Shown one piece after another: positions 39,591-48,632 of a stretch of 64,000 nucleotides of DNA (its first letter is position 1; each line of letters begins with the position of its first letter). Both the position numbers and the translations under genes were made by a program. The notes under the pieces are model-generated. The model was not told where the DNA came from, ran no database searches, and worked only from the letters and a program-made list of their open reading frames with translations. The DNA lies in assembly GCA_030425205.1 (NCBI GenBank), contig JAUIAP010000003.1, positions 62,001-126,000 of the forward strand. The letters are read 5' to 3'. The DNA is from Anaerolineae bacterium. GTDB taxonomy: Bacteria > Chloroflexota > Anaerolineae > Promineifilales > Promineifilaceae.

Positions 39591-39594
39591 CTTG

Positions 39595-39668
<74 letters not shown>

Positions 39669-40417: not shown

Positions 40418-40765
40418 CTACTCTTTCCACTCAGGCAGTGTCACTTTTGAAGCGGTGATGCGCTCAATTTCTGGGCGAACACCGTTTACGTGATATTCGC
40501 GTAAACCCAAACTCAACAGCCAACGAGCTGTTTCATTTTTGCCCAGACCATTTTCGCGTGCTAAGTTTTCGATCTCTTTTTCTAACTCGGGTAAGAGCAA
40601 GAGTGTCACGCGGATATGTTTCCCCGCGACTTTAGAGCTTTTGACTTTGCGCGTGTCTGGTTGGGACGCATCGCTCAGTGGATTTTGATATCCAAAGCGT
40701 TTGCTCTCTTGCTTATGCGATTCATCGTAACCAGAACGGGGGTCTAAAGGATTATTAGCCGTCAT
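40418..40765 (-). CDS. Second ribbon-helix-helix protein
   Basis: This 115-residue protein has a polar N-terminal arm and an RHH-like C-terminal half: KHIRVTLLLLPELEKEIENL, then ENGLGKNETARWLLSLGLRE, and the tail VRPEIERITASKV. That tail repeats the G-x-RPEIER-x-T ending of the RHH protein beside parA, so the two are paralogues. The start overlaps the upstream gene by 11 bases, with GGAGAG as ribosome-binding site, copying the parA-RHH layout. A DNA-binding or second centromere-binding role is likely. It may bind a different site. Confidence 0.8.
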   Translation of the reverse strand: MTANNPLDPRSGYDESHKQESKRFGYQNPLSDASQPDTRKVKSSKVAGKHIRVTLLLLPELEKEIENLARENGLGKNETARWLLSLGLREYHVNGVRPEIERITASKVTLPEWKE

Positions 40766-41585
40766 ATATTCTCTCCACTAGCTTTTCAAAGGTGTTTGTT
40801 GCAGGAAGATCACCCCGTGTTCCATGTCGAAACAGCGTTGGGTCGTTTGATGCGGTAGGCCTAACGACTTGCGTGCTGTCCAGTATGGGTTCAGCATTGC
40901 TGCTGTATCCAGCCCACTCAGGCGACAAGTTCAGACTTGCATTGTGAGTGCGCTGACTTGCCGTGAGGATTGATACACGGATGTGAATTTTGATGTCGCT
41001 TTCGGTCAGCCGTGCTTGTTGCACAGCATTAACGTGACGATTTGCCTCATGTTGATTGAGACAGTCGGTTTTTTTGACGTTGACCGTGTCCGCAAAGTGC
41101 AAGTTCGCGCGTGGTTGCGCATCGAGCGGACCGTTGTTGAAGTCAAGGCGAGCTGCAACGCTGCCCAGTTTGTAAGCTAGTAGAGAAATGAGGCTATTAT
41201 CGAAAGTTTTGGAATTGGAAAAGGCGGGGAAGGTGGACCATTGGAGGGTGTTTGTTGTGTTATCGGCCGAAACCATCGCCTCACGGATAGCTTTACGACC
41301 TATCATGCACGCACGATTGATTGTCCTTGTCGGGGCGCAATCGCGTGCATCCGCGCAATTTTCCATTCGATCAAGATCTCCGAGAGGTTCTTCTCCCAAT
41401 ACACGAGTTTGTTTACGATCTAACGTTACATGGTCATTCTCGTCTATTATTCGTTCTGCTGGTGCGAGTAATTGCCGCGACAACGTATCTGCGCATGGCA
41501 TCGTTGTTGTCGTCTTCGTCCCATCACTGCGAATCAGTGCAGTGTAGATGCGATTAAGCGTTCGTCTCGGCTGATTTTTTACCAT
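40755..41585 (-). CDS. Unknown 276-aa protein upstream of the second RHH gene
   Basis: I do not recognise this protein. From ATG 41585 (MVKNQPRRTLNRIY) it has 276 residues, no P-loop, no signal peptide and no membrane segment. It is polar, rich in Asn, Thr, Asp and Arg, and looks partly disordered. It holds the place that parA occupies in the other operon, overlapping the RHH gene by 11 bases. Plus-strand frames over the same stretch are longer than usual, so coding status rests on the overlap, the ribosome-binding site and an in-frame TCG-GCC-GAT element. Upstream GTATAC repeats (near 41620 and 41673) may be an operator. Confidence 0.55.
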   Translation of the reverse strand: MVKNQPRRTLNRIYTALIRSDGTKTTTTMPCADTLSRQLLAPAERIIDENDHVTLDRKQTRVLGEEPLGDLDRMENCADARDCAPTRTINRACMIGRKAIREAMVSADNTTNTLQWSTFPAFSNSKTFDNSLISLLAYKLGSVAARLDFNNGPLDAQPRANLHFADTVNVKKTDCLNQHEANRHVNAVQQARLTESDIKIHIRVSILTASQRTHNASLNLSPEWAGYSSNAEPILDSTQVVRPTASNDPTLFRHGTRGDLPATNTFEKLVERIYDG

Positions 41586-41721
41586 AAGAACAATAGTCCG
41601 ATCTTTAATCGAATGTGTAGTATACAAACTCAACTTTAACCGACAAGTGGCGATGGGTGGTTTTCAATTGTATACAGGGTGTGTTCACAACATTTTTCAC
41701 GCCTGCACAGCCAATTTTCAA

Positions 41722-41782
41722 TTGGATCGAATGTTGACACTAGTATAAATGCGGTTGACATTCAATTTGCATCTGTTACCAT
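41722..41782 (+). promoter_or_regulatory. Promoter region of the arginine cluster
   Basis: Two overlapping candidates exist: TTGGAT with TATAAA (41743) at 15 bases, and TTGACA (41755-41760) with TACCAT (41777-41782) at 16 bases. A second TTGACA lies at 41733. Either would give a transcript that starts shortly before the leader peptide. Confidence 0.5.
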
Positions 41783-41792
41783 TACCGCCATT

Positions 41793-41852
41793 ATGTTTTC
41801 GCAGACGATTGTTCGCCGACTCCGACGCCGCCCAAATCAGACCCACGTCTGA
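41793..41852 (+). CDS. Arginine leader peptide, 19 codons
   Basis: The frame encodes MFSQTIVRRLRRRPNQTHV. Five of six consecutive codons (41814-41831: CGC CGA CTC CGA CGC CGC) specify arginine. It ends at TGA 41850-41852, inside an RNA segment that takes part in the downstream antiterminator. The peptide itself presumably has no function. Its translation would sense charged tRNA-Arg ahead of argC. No strong Shine-Dalgarno is visible, which is the weak point. Confidence 0.65.
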   Translation: MFSQTIVRRLRRRPNQTHV

Positions 41853-41931
41853 CAATGGTTGCTGTTTAGCGAACGATAGCGTTTATCAATCATTTTGCCC
41901 GTCAGACAATTGCTGTTTGACGGGCTTTTTT
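41838..41931 (+). promoter_or_regulatory. Attenuator with mutually exclusive hairpins before argC
   Basis: Segment 1 CAGAC (41838-41842) can pair with segment 2 GTCTG (41847-41851). Segment 2 GTCTGAC (41847-41853) is also fully complementary to GTCAGAC (41901-41907), part of segment 3. Segment 3 (41897-41908) pairs with segment 4 (41914-41925) in a 12-pair terminator stem. A ribosome stalled on the arginine codons would mask segment 1 and favour 2:3 (read-through). A ribosome at the stop codon would mask segment 2 and favour 3:4 (termination). Confidence 0.72.
41897..41931 (+). terminator. Attenuator terminator of the arginine cluster
   Basis: GCCCGTCAGACA and TGTTTGACGGGC form a 12-pair stem (one G-U) around ATTGC, followed by six T. 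No complete gene lies upstream on this strand, so it acts on a leader transcript. Confidence 0.92.
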
Positions 41932-41986: not shown

Positions 41987-42985
41987 ATGATCAGAGTTGG
42001 TGTATTTGGTGCTACAGGATATGCAGGGGTGGAGTTAGTCAAGTTGCTGACACGCCATCGGCATGTTGAAATTATTTTTGCGACATCACAGACGTTTGCT
42101 GGTAAGCGATTAAACGATCTTTATCCAGCAGCGCATCCAGTGACGTTGATTGAACCCGATTCGGCCGATCTTAGCCAAATCGATGTCGCATTTCTTTGCC
42201 TACCCCATGCGACGGCCGCACCGACAGCGGTCAAGGTGCTGGCTGCGGGAGCGCGTGTCATCGATCTTAGTGCGGATTTTCGCATTAACGACGTGGCGAC
42301 CTACGAAAAATGGTATGGCGTGACCCATCCCGCGCCCGAACTGCTTGATGAAGCGGTCTATGGGTTAACCGAAATTGCACGGCACAAGCTGCCAAATGCA
42401 CGCTTGGTCGCCACGCCGGGTTGCTATCCGACGAGTATGTTACTTGGGTCACGCCCACTGCTAGAGGCAGGGGTTGTGACTGGTACGATTATCTCCGACA
42501 GCAAATCTGGTGTAAGCGGGGCGGGGCGTAAGCCGTCGATGACAACTCACTTTGTCGAAATCGGCAATAATTTGGTGCCATACAAAATTGGTCAAGCCCA
42601 TCGTCATCTGCCAGAAACACAGCAGGTGATGAAGTGGTTTGATCCCAATGCGCCCGAGCTGATATTTTCACCTCATTTGATTCCAATTCCACGCGGCTTA
42701 TTAAGTACGCTTTATGTGCCAATTTCGGCCGATTCCGTGACCGTCCGCAAGTTATACGACGAAATGTATGCAGACGAACCACTTGTCGACGTGCTGCCCG
42801 ATGGTCAGATCGCTACGATTGCCCACGCGGCCAACACCAACAAGTGCGTCATCTCAGTGCAGGTAGTCGGTAATCTCGCGATTGTCGTTTCGGTGATTGA
42901 TAACCTAGGCAAGGGTGCGGCCGGGCAGGCGTTGCAAAACATGAACGTCGTTTTCGGCTGTTCTGAAACAGAGGGACTGCAATAA
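41987..42985 (+). CDS. argC: N-acetyl-gamma-glutamyl-phosphate reductase
   Basis: The enzyme makes N-acetylglutamate semialdehyde from the phosphate with NADPH, the third step of arginine synthesis. It has 332 residues. The N-terminal NADP site is GVFGATGYAGVELVKLL, the catalytic Cys lies in ATPGCYPTSMLLG near 147-155, and SGVSGAGRKPSMTTHF is conserved. It is first in the cluster, behind an attenuator. The stop codon TAA shares its last base with the ATG of the next gene, so the two are coupled. Confidence 0.97.
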   Translation: MIRVGVFGATGYAGVELVKLLTRHRHVEIIFATSQTFAGKRLNDLYPAAHPVTLIEPDSADLSQIDVAFLCLPHATAAPTAVKVLAAGARVIDLSADFRINDVATYEKWYGVTHPAPELLDEAVYGLTEIARHKLPNARLVATPGCYPTSMLLGSRPLLEAGVVTGTIISDSKSGVSGAGRKPSMTTHFVEIGNNLVPYKIGQAHRHLPETQQVMKWFDPNAPELIFSPHLIPIPRGLLSTLYVPISADSVTVRKLYDEMYADEPLVDVLPDGQIATIAHAANTNKCVISVQVVGNLAIVVSVIDNLGKGAAGQALQNMNVVFGCSETEGLQ

Positions 42986-43449
42986 TGTCACTGACAGTAC
43001 GACAGGTGGAATTAGATAATGCTGAGGCGATGCAGCTAATTGCCGCCCTCGATGCCGCATTGTGGGAAGTTTACCCAGAAGATCAAGAGACCTATGCGGC
43101 GGGAAATCGCTTACCTAGTGATACAACGCTGGTTGTTGCCTATCTCGATGGTGTTGCCGTAGGCTGCGGCGCGTTTAAGCCCTTCGATGCAGAAACGGTT
43201 GAGATCAAGCGCATGTTTACGCATCCCGATGTGCGTGGGCATGGCGTGGCAACGGCGGTCTTGGCAGCGTTAGAGAAGCTGGCATTAGGCATCGGTCACA
43301 CGCTAGCGGTATTAGAAACTGGCAGCCGACAGGTCGAAGCGATGCGCCTTTATCGCAAATTGGGCTACCAACGCTGTGACTGTTTCGGTATGTATGCCGA
43401 TATGCCGCTGAGTATTTGTTACAAAAAAAGGTTGGTAGAACGTGGCTAA
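42985..43449 (+). CDS. GNAT-family N-acetyltransferase
   Basis: This 154-residue acetyltransferase uses acetyl-CoA. The A motif is EIKRMFTHPDVRGHGVATAVL, followed by MRLYRKLGYQRCDCFGMY (B motif). It lies between argC and argB with one-base overlap at the start, so it is surely transcribed with them. It is not the N-acetylglutamate synthase type, because the Cys-rich end of that family is missing and a better candidate lies at 46350. The substrate is unknown. Confidence 0.9.
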   Translation: MSLTVRQVELDNAEAMQLIAALDAALWEVYPEDQETYAAGNRLPSDTTLVVAYLDGVAVGCGAFKPFDAETVEIKRMFTHPDVRGHGVATAVLAALEKLALGIGHTLAVLETGSRQVEAMRLYRKLGYQRCDCFGMYADMPLSICYKKRLVERG

Positions 43450-43486: not shown

Positions 43487-43513
43487 TTGAGTTCAATGTG
43501 AACGTAATTGAGT
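43487..43513. promoter_or_regulatory. Phased TTGAGT array F, just before argB
   Basis: TTGAGT starts at 43487 and 43508, with GTGAAC at 43498 between them (spacings 11 and 10). It lies 7 kb from parA and ends 7 bases before the argB start codon, in the place of a ribosome-binding site. Confidence 0.62.
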
Positions 43514-43520
43514 GCAGACT

Positions 43521-44288
43521 ATGCGAGTATTGAAAGTTGGTGGAAACGAGTTAGACAATGACAAGTTCTTGCGCACGCTGGCAGCGGCTGTGGCCAAAAT
43601 TCAGAAGCAGGAACCCGTTGTCATTGTGCATGGCGGCGGTCGTGCGATAGCGGAGATGCACACCGAATTGAAGTTGCCGATCCGCAAGGTTGACGGTCTG
43701 CGGGTGACAAGTTCGCGCTCGCTCGATATTGCCGAAATGGTGTTATCAGGCAAGGCGAACAAACTGCTGGTACGTGCGCTGTTGATGGCTGGGGTCGATG
43801 CGTTGGGGATCAGCGGTGTCGATGGCGGCATGCTCGTGGCTCGCCAAAAGATACATCCAACGGCCGACTTGGGTTTTGTGGGCGAGATTGTCGATGTGCG
43901 TACCGATGTAATTACGCGGCTGATCGCGGCTGGCTTTACGCCGGTTGTGTCACCCATTTCGGCCGAAACCTCCCACACCCAACACTTCAACATCAACGCG
44001 GACGAAGCCGCAACCGCGCTCGCCGCCGCACTAAAAGCGGATTTGTTCGATTTTATTTCCAATGTTCCCGGCGTTTTGCACAATGACAAACTGGTTCCAA
44101 CGCTCTCCGCAGCACAAACGGCTTCCTATATAAAGGAAGGCGTCATTCATGGCGGCATGATCCCGAAGGTGAAGGCGGCCCTATTCGCGTTGGAAGCAGG
44201 GGTCAAGCGGACGCGCATCGTAAATGTTGATGGATTATTGACAGATGGGGGAACGGTGTTTGAAGAGAGTGGTGCCAACAGACCCTAG
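43521..44288 (+). CDS. argB: Acetylglutamate kinase
   Basis: The enzyme phosphorylates N-acetylglutamate, the second step of arginine synthesis. From ATG 43521 (MRVLKVGGNELDN) it has 255 residues, the length of the arginine-insensitive short form without the N-terminal helix. Landmarks are KVGGNEL, VIVHGGGRAIAEM, DGLRVTSSRSLDIAEMVLSG and FNINADEAATALAAAL, with KADLFDFISNVPGVL near the ATP site. A GTG at 43512 is an alternative start. The preceding 8 bases belong to a TTGAGT array, and no normal ribosome-binding site is seen. Confidence 0.96.
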   Translation: MRVLKVGGNELDNDKFLRTLAAAVAKIQKQEPVVIVHGGGRAIAEMHTELKLPIRKVDGLRVTSSRSLDIAEMVLSGKANKLLVRALLMAGVDALGISGVDGGMLVARQKIHPTADLGFVGEIVDVRTDVITRLIAAGFTPVVSPISAETSHTQHFNINADEAATALAAALKADLFDFISNVPGVLHNDKLVPTLSAAQTASYIKEGVIHGGMIPKVKAALFALEAGVKRTRIVNVDGLLTDGGTVFEESGANRP

Positions 44289-44317: not shown

Positions 44318-45133
44318 ATGCAAGTACAAGATCTTTATATCTATCCCGTGAAATCATGTGCTGGAATTCGGCTGGAATCGGCCGATCTAACCCCAACAGG
44401 TCTCAAGCACGACCGCGAATATGTCATCACAAAACCCGATGGCATGTTTGTGACACAGCGACAGTTGCCTCGTTTGGCACTAATTAAGCCGCGCATCGCT
44501 GATAACGTACTAACGCTCGACGCACCTGACATGGAAACACTTCGCATAGTCAAGAATGAAGATGCGAATATCCAACCTGTCACCGTCTGGAACAGTACCG
44601 TATTGGCCGCCGACCAAGGGGATGCTGTAGCGGCGTGGCTGCAAAGCTATTTGGGGGTTGAACTGCGGCTATTCGCACTGTGCGCGGCGACCCATCGGCC
44701 GATCAACCCCGATTTCGCCCGCAATCCCGACGATGTGGTCAGCTTTGCAGATGGGTATGCAATGTTGCTGATTTCACAAGCATCGCTGGACGGGTTGAAT
44801 GAAAAGCTGGCCGAGCAGGTCGGGATGGAGCGATTTCGGCCGAATATCGTTGTCAGCGGTGCAACCCCACACGCGGAAGATTTCTGGAAAGAGTTACATA
44901 TAAACGACATTCCCATGAGCGGCGTGAAGCTCTGCGCCCGCTGTTCCATCCCCGCCATCGATCAGGCAACCGCCAAAATGGGCAAAGAGCCCAACCGCAC
45001 CCTCGCTAGCTATCGTCGCCACGAACGGGGCGTCATGTTTGGCATGAATATGGTGCATCATGCGCTTGGAACGCTCCGCGTTGGCGATGCTGTCACCATC
45101 AATGAACATCACGCGACGCTGGGCGGACTATAA
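44318..45133 (+). CDS. MOSC protein with N-terminal beta-barrel domain
   Basis: This 271-residue protein is of the YcbX/mARC shape. The MOSC_N barrel starts LYIYPVKSCAGIRLESADL and runs to about 110. The MOSC domain contains RFRPNIVVSGATPHAEDFW and the conserved Cys in MSGVKLCARCSIPAIDQ, the molybdenum ligand. Related proteins reduce N-hydroxylated compounds with an external electron donor. No C-terminal ferredoxin domain is present. It sits between argB and argD, 29 bases after argB, though no link to arginine synthesis is known. Confidence 0.9.
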   Translation: MQVQDLYIYPVKSCAGIRLESADLTPTGLKHDREYVITKPDGMFVTQRQLPRLALIKPRIADNVLTLDAPDMETLRIVKNEDANIQPVTVWNSTVLAADQGDAVAAWLQSYLGVELRLFALCAATHRPINPDFARNPDDVVSFADGYAMLLISQASLDGLNEKLAEQVGMERFRPNIVVSGATPHAEDFWKELHINDIPMSGVKLCARCSIPAIDQATAKMGKEPNRTLASYRRHERGVMFGMNMVHHALGTLRVGDAVTINEHHATLGGL

Positions 45134-45177: not shown

Positions 45178-46353
45178 ATGATTATTCAAAACGAAAAACA
45201 GTTTATTGCCCCCACATACACGCGCCCCGACATCGTCTTTTCTCATGGATCGGGTGTGTATCTCTATGACACCGACGGCAAGCAGTATCTCGACTTTTGC
45301 GCCGGCATCGCCGTCAACGCATTGGGACATAGCGATCCCGATTGGGTGGCTGCGGTCAGTGAACAGGCGGGATTATTGACGCACGTCAGCAATTTGTATC
45401 ACACCGCCCCCGCTGTTGAATTGGCAGAACGCTTGGTCACGGCATCGTTTGCCGACAAGGTTTATTTTGCTAACTCGGGAGCAGAATCGAATGAAGGGGC
45501 GATCAAATTTGCCCGTAAATATCAACGGATGCACGGTCGTGAAGGCAAGACGACGATTGTCAGCTTTAGCGGCGCCTTTCATGGGCGCACGATGGGTGCG
45601 TTAGCCGTCACACCACGTGAGAAATATCAAGCCTACTTTCGTCCGCTGATGCCTGATGTGCGGGTAGGGGAATTTAATGATTTAGAATCGGCCGAAAATG
45701 TCATCACATCAGACACAGCCGCTGTCATCGTTGAACCCGTGCAGGGGGAGGGTGGCATTCGTCCCGCTACGCAAGCATTTTTGCAGCGCGTGCGTGAACT
45801 GTGTGATCTGCATGATGTTTTGCTGATCTTCGATGAGGTGCAGTGCGGGTTGGGCCGCACGGGCTATCTGTTTGCCCATGAAGCGTTTGGTGTTGCGCCC
45901 GATCTGTTGACGTTGGCAAAACCGTTGGCGGGCGGCTTGCCCATTGGAGCAGTTCTGATGACCGACGCGGTGGCCGCGACCATTCAGCCCGGCGATCATG
46001 CCAGCACATTTGCTGGAGGGCCGCTGGTTGCCCGTGCCGCACAGGTCGTTTTCGATAGAGTTAGCGATCCCGCCATGTTGGCACACATCCGTGATATGGG
46101 TGAACATCTGCACGAACAGCTTGAAGGCAAGCTGCCCCAAGATAAGGTCGTTGAGATTCGCGGGATGGGCTTGATGATTGGGGTAGAGCTGACCGTTCCC
46201 GTCGCGCCATTGGTTCCACAGATGGCTGAACAAGGATTATTGACGGTGGGTGCGGGTGAAAAAGTTTTGCGCCTTGTTCCACCGCTGATTATCGACAAAG
46301 ATGATGTGGAACAAGCCACCGACATCATCGCATCGGTCTTGGAGGCGGCATGA
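45178..46353 (+). CDS. argD: Acetylornithine aminotransferase
   Basis: This is a PLP-dependent class III aminotransferase that converts N-acetylglutamate semialdehyde to N-acetylornithine with glutamate. It has 391 residues. The PLP contacts include NSGAESNEGAIKFARKY, the Asp in LLIFDEVQCGLGRTGYLF, and the Schiff-base Lys in LLTLAKPLAGGLPIGAVL. THVSNLYHTAPAVELAERL is typical of ArgD. The last four bases overlap the start of the N-acetylglutamate synthase gene. Confidence 0.97.
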   Translation: MIIQNEKQFIAPTYTRPDIVFSHGSGVYLYDTDGKQYLDFCAGIAVNALGHSDPDWVAAVSEQAGLLTHVSNLYHTAPAVELAERLVTASFADKVYFANSGAESNEGAIKFARKYQRMHGREGKTTIVSFSGAFHGRTMGALAVTPREKYQAYFRPLMPDVRVGEFNDLESAENVITSDTAAVIVEPVQGEGGIRPATQAFLQRVRELCDLHDVLLIFDEVQCGLGRTGYLFAHEAFGVAPDLLTLAKPLAGGLPIGAVLMTDAVAATIQPGDHASTFAGGPLVARAAQVVFDRVSDPAMLAHIRDMGEHLHEQLEGKLPQDKVVEIRGMGLMIGVELTVPVAPLVPQMAEQGLLTVGAGEKVLRLVPPLIIDKDDVEQATDIIASVLEAA

Positions 46354-46868
46354 GCGGACGATATGCCATTCGAATGGCTGGAGAGGCAACCACGCTAGAG
46401 CGAGAGATCGAGATTCGTTCAGCAACGCTCGCTGATGTACCTGCGATTGCCGAATTGGTTGCACAGTTTGTTGTGACGGGTGATCTGCTCCCCCGATCAA
46501 GTGAGTCGATCCAGTTGACCATTAATGATTGGGTTGTCGGAATTCTTGATGGGGAGATGGTAGGGATCGGCTCGCTATTGGTTTACACGCCCGTGTTGGC
46601 AGAGGTGCGTTCACTGGCGGTTTTGGGCAAGGCGCAGGGGACGGGAATCGGCCGAAATATCGTCACCACGCTCATTGAAATGGGCAAATCCCGCCAAATC
46701 CCGACACTCTTCGCCCTTACACGCGCCGTCCGCTTCTTTGAGAAGCTCGGTTTCACCGTCACCGACAAAGAAAATTTTCCAGAAAAAATTTGGCATGCCT
46801 GCCGACTCTGTCCAATTCAGGATAATTGTGATGAGATCGCGGTCGTTTTGCCATTGGAGGCGACATGA
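46350..46868 (+). CDS. argA: N-acetylglutamate synthase-like GNAT (ArgA type)
   Basis: This 172-residue GNAT is of the short ArgA/YokL group, which acetylates glutamate, the first step of arginine synthesis. The A motif is VRSLAVLGKAQGTGIGRNIV. The diagnostic C-terminus is WHACRLCPIQDNCDEIAVV, with the paired Cys and final Asp-Glu of amino-acid N-acetyltransferases. It lacks the kinase-like domain of classical ArgA. It overlaps argD by 4 bases and the next GNAT gene by 4 bases, so the three are translationally coupled. Confidence 0.88.
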   Translation: MSGRYAIRMAGEATTLEREIEIRSATLADVPAIAELVAQFVVTGDLLPRSSESIQLTINDWVVGILDGEMVGIGSLLVYTPVLAEVRSLAVLGKAQGTGIGRNIVTTLIEMGKSRQIPTLFALTRAVRFFEKLGFTVTDKENFPEKIWHACRLCPIQDNCDEIAVVLPLEAT

Positions 46869-47287
46869 ATATTCGCCCATTTCACAGCGCAGATACAGAG
46901 GCCGTTGTCAACCTGTGGGTCGCGTGCGGTCTGGTTAAGCCGTGGAATGATCCCTATCTCGATATTGAGCTTAAACAGCGGGTTGCACCCGAACTGTTTC
47001 TTGTGGGCGAGGTCAATGAGCAACTGGTCGCCACAGCGATGGGTGGCTATGAGGGTCATCGTGGCTGGGTGAACTATCTCGCTGTCGCCCCCGACCTGCA
47101 AGGTGGTGGCTATGGTCGACAAATGATGCGCGCGCTGGAGCGACGGCTAATTGCACGCGGTTGCCCCAAGCTCAATCTACAAATTCGTACAAACAACATA
47201 GACGTGATCGCATTTTATGAAGCGATTGGCTATAAGCAGGATGATGTCGTCTCAATGGGCAAGCGGCTCATTTCGGACGATTCGTAA
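46865..47287 (+). CDS. GNAT acetyltransferase, YpeA type
   Basis: This 140-residue acetyltransferase begins MNIRPFHSADTEAVVNLW. The A motif is NYLAVAPDLQGGGYGRQMM, and the B motif includes NNIDVIAFYEAIGYKQDD, which is the YpeA pattern. The substrate of YpeA is not known. It follows the argA-like gene with a 4-base overlap and precedes argG by 79 bases. It is the third GNAT gene in this cluster. Confidence 0.9.
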   Translation: MNIRPFHSADTEAVVNLWVACGLVKPWNDPYLDIELKQRVAPELFLVGEVNEQLVATAMGGYEGHRGWVNYLAVAPDLQGGGYGRQMMRALERRLIARGCPKLNLQIRTNNIDVIAFYEAIGYKQDDVVSMGKRLISDDS

Positions 47288-47366: not shown

Positions 47367-48632
47367 ATGTCAAAAAAGGATATTAAAAAAGTTGTTCTCG
47401 CCTACTCTGGCGGGTTGGATACATCGGTGATCGTGCCATGGTTGAAGGAAAACTATGGATGCGAAGTGATCTGTTTCTGCGCCAATTTAGGGCAGGGGGA
47501 TTTTGAGCTAGAGGGTTTGGAGGAAAAAGGGATTGCCAGCGGTGCCAGCAAAGTGATCATCAAAGATTTGCGCGAGGAGTTTGCGGCCGATTTTCTCTTC
47601 CCAATGTTGCAATCGGGCGCGATTTATGAGAAGCAATATCTGCTCGGCACGTCAATTGCACGCCCCCTAATCGCGCAGCATTTGGTGATGATTGCCGAAG
47701 AAGAAGGGGCGGATGCAATTTCGCACGGAGCGACAGGCAAGGGCAATGACCAGGTGCGCTTTGAACTGACGGTGAAGGCGCTCAACCCAACACTCAAAGT
47801 GGTTGCACCGTGGCGCGAGTGGGAGATTCGCAGCCGTGAAGATGCGATTGATTATGCCAAAAAGCACAACGTCCCGATCACGCATACGAAAAAGTCGATT
47901 TACAGCCGCGATGCTAACCTATGGCATCTATCGCACGAGGGCGGCATCTTGGAAGACCCAATCAATGAGCCAGAAGAGGCGATGTTCCAACTGACCGTCT
48001 CACCAGAAGCTGCACCAGATGAAGCAGAGTATGTCAAGATCGATTTTGAAGATGGAATTCCAAAGATGGTCAACGATGTCGCATTGAGTCCCGCCAATTT
48101 GATTATGAAGCTGAACGAGATTGGCGCACGCAATGCAATCGGCCGAATTGATCTCGTCGAAAACCGTTTGGTCGGCATGAAGTCGCACGGTGTCTATGAA
48201 ACACCGGGTGGCACATTGCTCTATGACGCGCATCGTGAACTCGAATCGCTCTGCCTTGACCGCGACACGCTCCACTTCAAAGAGATGATGGGTGTGCGCT
48301 ATGCAGAGCTTGTCTACTTTGGCAAGTGGTTCCATGCGTTGCGCGAGGCGATGCAGGCATTTGTCACGACGACACAGGTCGATTTAACCGGCTGGGTCAA
48401 ATTTAAACTGTATAAGGGTAACGTCATCGTTGCGGGTCGCTATAGCCCCAGCAGCTTGTATCGTGAGGATTTTGCGACCTTTGGTAAAGAAGATGTCTAT
48501 GACCAAAGCGACGCGGAAGGGTTTATCAACCTGTTTGGCTTGCAGATGAAAGTGCGTGCGATGCAAGAGATCAGCGGTGGTGGACGCACCCGTTACGCTG
48601 CGCCTGACTACTCTGTTTTTAAGCGTGATTAA
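47367..48632 (+). CDS. argG: Argininosuccinate synthase
   Basis: The enzyme joins citrulline and aspartate with ATP to argininosuccinate, the seventh step of arginine synthesis. It has 421 residues. The PP-loop is [18 protein letters not shown] near 9-26. Further family blocks are [31 protein letters not shown] and [29 protein letters not shown] precedes the ATG. It is the last gene of the cluster. argF, argH and an argJ or argE gene are not in the window. A strong terminator follows about 200 bases later. Confidence 0.98.

Follow-up and report, generated by a model that had tools for sequence, protein, structure and literature searches.

Ribosome-mediated transcription attenuators of the trp, his, leu and thr type have been described for Proteobacteria and trp, leu and cys attenuators for Actinobacteria; no RNA structure was found upstream of the actinobacterial arginine operons (PMC1262725). 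The attenuator motifs available in Rfam at the time of another study were limited to His, Leu, Thr and Trp, with Ile/Val and Phe attenuators described besides, and a gammaproteobacterial origin of attenuators was suggested there (PMC3766115). A Shine-Dalgarno sequence before the leader ORF is typical of enteric attenuators without being universal or defining. For arginine-related genes, a leader peptide has been described for carAB of Pseudomonas aeruginosa (Kwon et al. 1994, cited in PMC4997734). Classical attenuation, the mechanism considered here, is already known, and so are Arg-codon leaders acting by other mechanisms (PMC6386406, PMC13009471). No report on arginine attenuation in Chloroflexota was found in the literature searched, in which the survey nearest to this topic (Lopatovskaya et al. 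2010) was not included.

Here, the region upstream of argC was analyzed in a Chloroflexota (Anaerolineae) genome. The window, i.e. the whole stretch of DNA analyzed (64,000 nt), lies on contig C36 in a draft genome of 7.8 Mb with a completeness of 96% and a contamination of 7.7%. Among named sequences, those closest to its ArgC belong to Chloroflexota/Anaerolineae MAGs, including a Promineifilum sp. The sole tRNA gene of the window is a tRNA-Pro (CGG) at 39594-39668 on the reverse strand. The argC leader is very likely a trp-type ribosome-mediated transcription attenuator sensing arginyl-tRNA, although no RNA or reporter data are available. Its link to the cognate operon is shown; the leader is followed by the gene order argC-GNAT-argB-MOSC-argD-GNAT-GNAT-argG; co-transcription from argC to argG is inferred from gene order and spacing. 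The operon consists of the following genes:

41987-42985, forward strand: argC, first gene of the operon (TIGR01850, 366.8 bits)
42985-43449, forward strand: GNAT gene after argC
43512-44288, forward strand: argB
44318-45133, forward strand: gene of a MOSC-domain protein, between argB and argD
45178-46353, forward strand: argD
46350-46868, forward strand: GNAT gene, NAGS-like
46865-47287, forward strand: third GNAT gene of the operon
47367-48632, forward strand: argG, last listed gene of the operon

The leader region comprises the following elements:

41755-41782, forward strand: promoter with -35 TTGACA (41755-41760), 16-nt spacer and extended -10 TACCAT (41777-41782), 10/12 consensus matches
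41793-41852, forward strand: leader ORF of ATG plus 18 codons (19 in total), peptide MFSQTIVRRLRRRPNQTHV, without Shine-Dalgarno sequence and predicted to be leaderless
41803-41884, forward strand: outer helix of 41803-41816 with 41869-41877 and 41880-41884, formed around the Arg codons in the MFE fold of the ribosome-free state
41814-41831, forward strand: regulatory codons CGC CGA CTC CGA CGC CGC, five Arg in six, an Arg run conserved in relatives
41837-41842, forward strand: segment 1, TCAGAC, pairing with GTCTGA (41847-41852) of segment 2
41847-41861, forward strand: segment 2, GTCTGACAATGGTTG, partner of segment 1 or segment 3 (stall simulation)
41887-41907, forward strand: segment 3, CAATCATT (41887-41894) plus GTCAGAC (41901-41907), forming the antiterminator with segment 2 and also serving as 5′ part of the terminator
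41897-41931, forward strand: intrinsic terminator (3:4) with a 12-pair stem (41897-41908/41914-41925), a loop of 5 and T6 (41926-41931)

The -10 hexamer is preceded by TG, and its end is separated from the leader ATG by 10 nt. The stop codon TGA at 41850-41852 is located within segment 2. The core of the 2:3 pairing is formed by GTCTGAC (41847-41853) and GTCAGAC (41901-41907), and in the fold with a stalled ribosome it is extended by the pairing of AATGGTTG (41854-41861) with CAATCATT. In folding, the leader region exceeds shuffled sequences by 3.9 sd, and none of them equalled it (0/200). This anatomy is shown: the leader has the clustered cognate codons, the mutually exclusive 1:2/2:3/3:4 pairings, the stop codon in segment 2 and the U-tract terminator of trp-type attenuators; a Shine-Dalgarno sequence before the leader ORF is lacking. 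A preceding sequence-only reading had described the 19-codon frame with its five Arg codons in six, the three pairings, the 12-pair terminator with six T and the position of the stop codon. All of this held, the frame being present letter for letter and the pairings being read directly from the sequence; the promoter, the outer helix and the membership in a set of leaders were absent from that reading.

The conservation of the leader was assessed by searching the 400 nt upstream of argC for a short ORF with at least three Arg codons in eight and an intrinsic terminator behind it. Of 31 regions in the family and its sister family, 29 had this combination, compared with only 1 of 1,240 shuffled sequences, so that a chance combination of ORF and terminator was rejected. 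In other families of the class it was found before argC in 8/11 cases (shuffles 0/440), the remaining three upstream regions being without detectable leader, and in other classes without ArgR in 5/20 (shuffles 0/800). None of 20 genomes with ArgR had an argC leader. The related genomes do not represent independent events in these counts, and the samples outside the class were picked by hand from search lists. The Arg leaders observed before argC outside the class are L254-L256, L251 and L253. Concerning the two misses within the family, the element of L027 is located slightly further upstream and was hit by the covariance model with 107 bits, and L016 (genome G024; also L138) carries an in-frame TAG before the Arg codons where its sisters have CAG. 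The G024 leader retains the remainder of the element despite this TAG, which may have arisen by natural nonsense mutation or by an error in sequencing.

Covariation, which is likewise shown, was analyzed in an alignment of 32 leaders. For helices 1:2 and 3:4 together, 96.4% of the cells were paired and 29 double-change cells were counted, compared to 5.7 in shuffles; the 1:2 helix alone was kept in 94.6% of the cells. Sliding the 1:2 and 3:4 partners by 1-3 columns reduced the pairing to 21-47%. Compensatory changes occurred at 8 of the 12 pairs of the terminator stem. The 2:3 antiterminator was paired in 99.1% of the cells, with 7 double-change cells against 1.6 in shuffles, and where the inner pair of segments 3 and 4 changed from C-G to U-A, the segment 2 G changed to A in step. 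In the distant members L120, L040 and L254, which were read by eye, other letters are used with the pairing logic unchanged. Helices resembling the outer helix were found in relatives only modestly above chance. The leader peptide varies outside the Arg run except for a C-terminal QT-x-GLV, which is conserved because the RNA pairing CAGACC/GGTCTGG dictates it.

These data bear on a first alternative, according to which the Arg run is incidental and the hairpin is the ordinary terminator of an upstream gene or a constitutive weak terminator. Chance can produce a resemblance in a single sequence, and intrinsic terminators are common. However, conservation and covariation are seen in leader, 2:3 pairing and terminator, and the codon runs of related leaders follow the downstream gene, as described below. 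Moreover, the hairpin is not the terminator of the upstream ORF (40755-41633), since that ORF is located on the strand opposite to the leader. This alternative is practically ruled out.

The absence of ArgR is shown for the genome under study: the ArgR domain PF01316 had no hits there, with control genomes being positive, and ArgR control of the argC operon was consequently rejected. Within the class, PF01316 exceeded the cut-off in 4 of 396 genomes, in all cases by weak, partial matches of 27-31 bits covering only positions 24-68. In a sample of 400 genomes of the phylum it exceeded the cut-off in 97, none from this class being in the list. ArgR is almost absent from the class, and other Chloroflexota classes have it. 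A second argC-like gene (G000:C36:146255) was rejected as the true argC because it sits in a lysW-lysX-lysY-lysZ-lysJ-like cluster; no Arg leader was detected in the 17 upstream regions of such second copies. Attenuation, as proposed by the sequence-only reading, is supported, the response to arginine itself being inferred only: relatives keep Arg codons, alternative pairings and terminator upstream of argC, and the argR gene it suggested to look for was not found. Its expectation that the arrangement would be unusual in this kind of bacterium needs correction, as within the class it is apparently the usual one.

The start of the leader was surveyed in 53 Arg and Ala leaders. A TTGAC-16/17-TANNNT block precedes the leader ATG in nearly all of them, and the ATG is located 6-10 nt behind the -10 hexamer in all but three; for two of these exceptions (L019 and L198), reading of the printed sequences revealed an in-frame upstream ATG that restores the distance. 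No Shine-Dalgarno-like 4-mer was found before the leader ATG in any of the 53 leaders. Given this spacing and the lack of a Shine-Dalgarno sequence, the leader mRNA is probably leaderless; transcription start and leaderless initiation are inferred.

In the proposed mechanism, RNA polymerase would start at, or a few bases from, the leader ATG, and therefore the ribosome would probably load on a leaderless mRNA. When charged tRNA-Arg is scarce, the ribosome is predicted to stall in the Arg run and to mask segment 1, whereupon the 2:3 helix (15 pairs) would form, the terminator would be blocked and argC-argG would be transcribed. When arginine is plentiful, the ribosome would reach the stop codon inside segment 2 and cover this segment, so that 3:4 would form and transcription would end near 41931. 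In the absence of translation, formation of 1:2 and the outer helix would again result in termination. Stalling, termination and the sign of the arginine response are all inferred.

The switch was simulated by equilibrium folding of fragments, which does not represent kinetics. With a stall on any of the five Arg codons, the leading edge of the ribosome being placed 12 nt past the A-site codon and the RNA ending before segment 4, the best fold was the 15-pair 2:3 helix (-18.2 kcal/mol), and with the ribosome at the stop codon the terminator was free and constituted the best fold. Segment 3 paired upstream in the stall test in 17 of 18 relatives examined and in all six leaders of the genome itself, i.e. 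those described below for Pro, Tyr, Lys, Ala and Phe and the Arg leader. The ribosome footprint at the stop codon covers all segment-2 partners in five of these six and 5/7 in the Lys leader. Shuffled sequences matched the stall test in 1/300 (Pro), 1/300 (Tyr), 13/300 (Lys), 20/300 (Ala), 21/300 (Arg) and 55/300 (Phe) cases, the last value making the Phe case weak. The antiterminator of the window's own argC leader is just moderately better than shuffles and its heptamer is more diverged than those of the relatives, which is a point against the attenuator reading. Further points against it are the in-frame TAG of the G024 leader and the three leaderless argC upstream regions in other families of the class, i.e. 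those without detectable leader.

A covariance model (R1) built from the Arg leader found second copies in relatives, where alaS is preceded by Ala runs (e.g. MKQSCVISAAAAAQTSGLVTSAA), lysX-like genes by Lys runs and argG by Arg runs. Most weak hits of model R2 in relatives (20-30 bits) were rejected as terminators without leaders, and a weak R1/R2 hit in the genome itself (G000:C53:74947; 24.7 and 28.9 bits) has no codon run and was taken as a plain terminator. In L154-L174 and others from relatives, the argC hairpin module CAGACC/GGTCTGG and the CCGCCAGACY terminator were observed to be reused with Ala runs before alaS. The alaS genes were located with a query of the first 60 residues of a locus ORF followed by a generic AlaRS N-terminus, used for this only. 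In the genome itself, leaders were surveyed by a leaderless-promoter pattern search with 73 matches (44 with the reversed pattern), of which 70 places were read. Being restricted to the promoter pattern, this survey is incomplete and no whole-genome scan; it recovered the argC leader and four short ORFs with a terminator before a cognate gene. Together with the Ala leader, the leaders of the same genome other than that of argC are:

L214, contig C79 of the genome (G000): Ala leader MNLFSVAFAPAFAAAAAELPHG before alaS, promoter TTGATC-17-TATCAT
L338: Pro leader MFTAFFAPTAPRPSTR before proS
L352: Phe leader MLTQRFFSFFFSNGRTAVPILAG before pheS
L388: Tyr leader MNQKRAHYYYDDKTKSPRSAAVLHG before tyrS
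L361: Lys leader MKNIAQITRKDKKSRHT before lysW-lysX

In the Ala leader the stop codon lies in segment 2 and the 2:3 pairing is present; its terminator is unrelated in sequence to that of argC. Tyr leaders were found before tyrS in 12 of 24 genomes (shuffles 0/720), and proS was preceded by Pro leaders in 6 of 30 (shuffles 0/900), the own genome included in both cases. Additionally, a Pro-codon leader (MSRNVPLPCPIPRLYPDLRSGYAGVLLD) precedes a proS of the other subfamily (proS_fam_I) in L328 (G046), and a Lys-rich leader (MTTFESNKRKAKKM) with a CAGAC/GTCTGG module precedes an ORF of unknown family in L312 (G001, same genus). Single contigs of this draft genome could be foreign in view of the contamination. 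A foreign origin of the Ala, Lys, Pro and Tyr leaders is disfavoured, since all four recur in relatives; evidence for the Phe leader comes from the own genome only. Inferred from sequence, at least five more leader switches (Ala, Pro, Phe, Tyr and Lys, with Phe weak) are thus probably present in the same genome.

Because the codon run in relatives changes with the gene behind it (alaS, lysX, proS, tyrS) and matches its amino acid, a codon-reading mechanism is favoured; only such a mechanism explains the swap well. A second alternative states that leader translation acts via TnaC-like nascent-peptide arrest in response to free arginine, Rho-dependent termination or mRNA stability and not via tRNA charging. 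Arg-codon ORFs acting by Rho and RNA decay are indeed known (Salmonella speF orf34, PMC6386406). Against this, conservation extends to a dedicated intrinsic terminator and its 2:3 alternative, the peptide is variable outside the Arg run with its QT-x-GLV dictated by RNA pairing, and the same module occurs with codons of other amino acids; we consider this alternative highly improbable. The same holds for a further possibility, namely that besides cis attenuation the terminated leader RNA or peptide acts in trans, like the proposed peTrpL of Sinorhizobium. Only precedent (PMC7298713) and the fact that the terminated RNA would be ~140 nt and carry a short basic peptide speak for it, but apart from codon run and paired segments the peptide shows no conserved sequence.

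The genome also contains eight T-boxes, seven of which were placed (L405-L411) before ileS, trpE, valS, serS, asd, thrS and leuS, with one ORF between T-box and gene for ileS and leuS. The six leader-controlled genes do not overlap with the seven identified T-box targets, and no gene has both. The presence of T-boxes supports a remaining alternative in which the arginine sensor is a riboswitch, a T-box or a protein, as yet unidentified, that binds DNA or RNA, with the ORF as a by-product. However, a search with 4227 Rfam models yielded no match of the element above the gathering score, either in the window or in 14 related loci, the T-box model RF00230 had no match in the window, ArgR is absent, and what changes with the downstream gene is codon identity and not an aptamer. 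This alternative can hardly be maintained.

A bolder reading, to which we incline by a narrow margin, is that Anaerolineae and some other Chloroflexota do without ArgR and employ a genome-wide set of leader-peptide attenuators, leaderless and based on one reusable terminator/antiterminator module, which would be retuned by swapping the codon run (Arg, Ala, Lys, Pro, Tyr, Phe), with the amino acids shared out with T-boxes covering different genes. The amino-acid attenuators of the papers searched come mostly from Proteobacteria and Actinobacteria and respond to a small number of amino acids; here, arginine together with alanine, lysine, proline and tyrosine is seemingly read by leaders in a little-studied phylum, where they apparently replace ArgR. 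One module with swapped codon runs provides a natural test set for changes of attenuator specificity, and the division between T-boxes and leaders in one genome opens the choice of a lineage between both systems to a direct test. As suggested by the leaderless start, the entry point of the sensor would be leaderless translation.

Compared with known systems, T-boxes (RF00230) likewise sense tRNA charging before aminoacyl-tRNA synthetase and biosynthesis genes, but bind the tRNA directly and have no translated leader. The rbfL of S. aureus (PMC13009471) and orf34 of Salmonella speF are short ORFs which, like the argC leader, sense arginine via Arg codons; rbfL blocks a ribosome binding site and orf34 acts through Rho and RNA decay, and in neither case is arginine biosynthesis under the control of a terminator/antiterminator switch. 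For the cysS uORF motif uORFC-8-2 of Rhodobacterales (PMC8632094), ribosome-mediated attenuation has been predicted before an aminoacyl-tRNA synthetase gene, as for alaS, proS, pheS and tyrS here, with the differences that it concerns cysteine and Alphaproteobacteria. The carAB leader peptide of P. aeruginosa also precedes an arginine/pyrimidine gene and is seemingly leaderless (the title states no untranslated region), whereas Pseudomonas has ArgR and the operon is a different one; this likeness is taken from the citation and not from sequence. With the trp/his/leu/thr-type attenuators the argC leader shares the tandem-codon leader ORF, the stop codon in segment 2, the exclusive 1:2/2:3/3:4 pairings and the U-tailed terminator before the cognate operon, and it differs from them in its arginine signal, its occurrence in Chloroflexota, its apparently leaderless ORF and a shared heptamer module that is reused with other codon runs.
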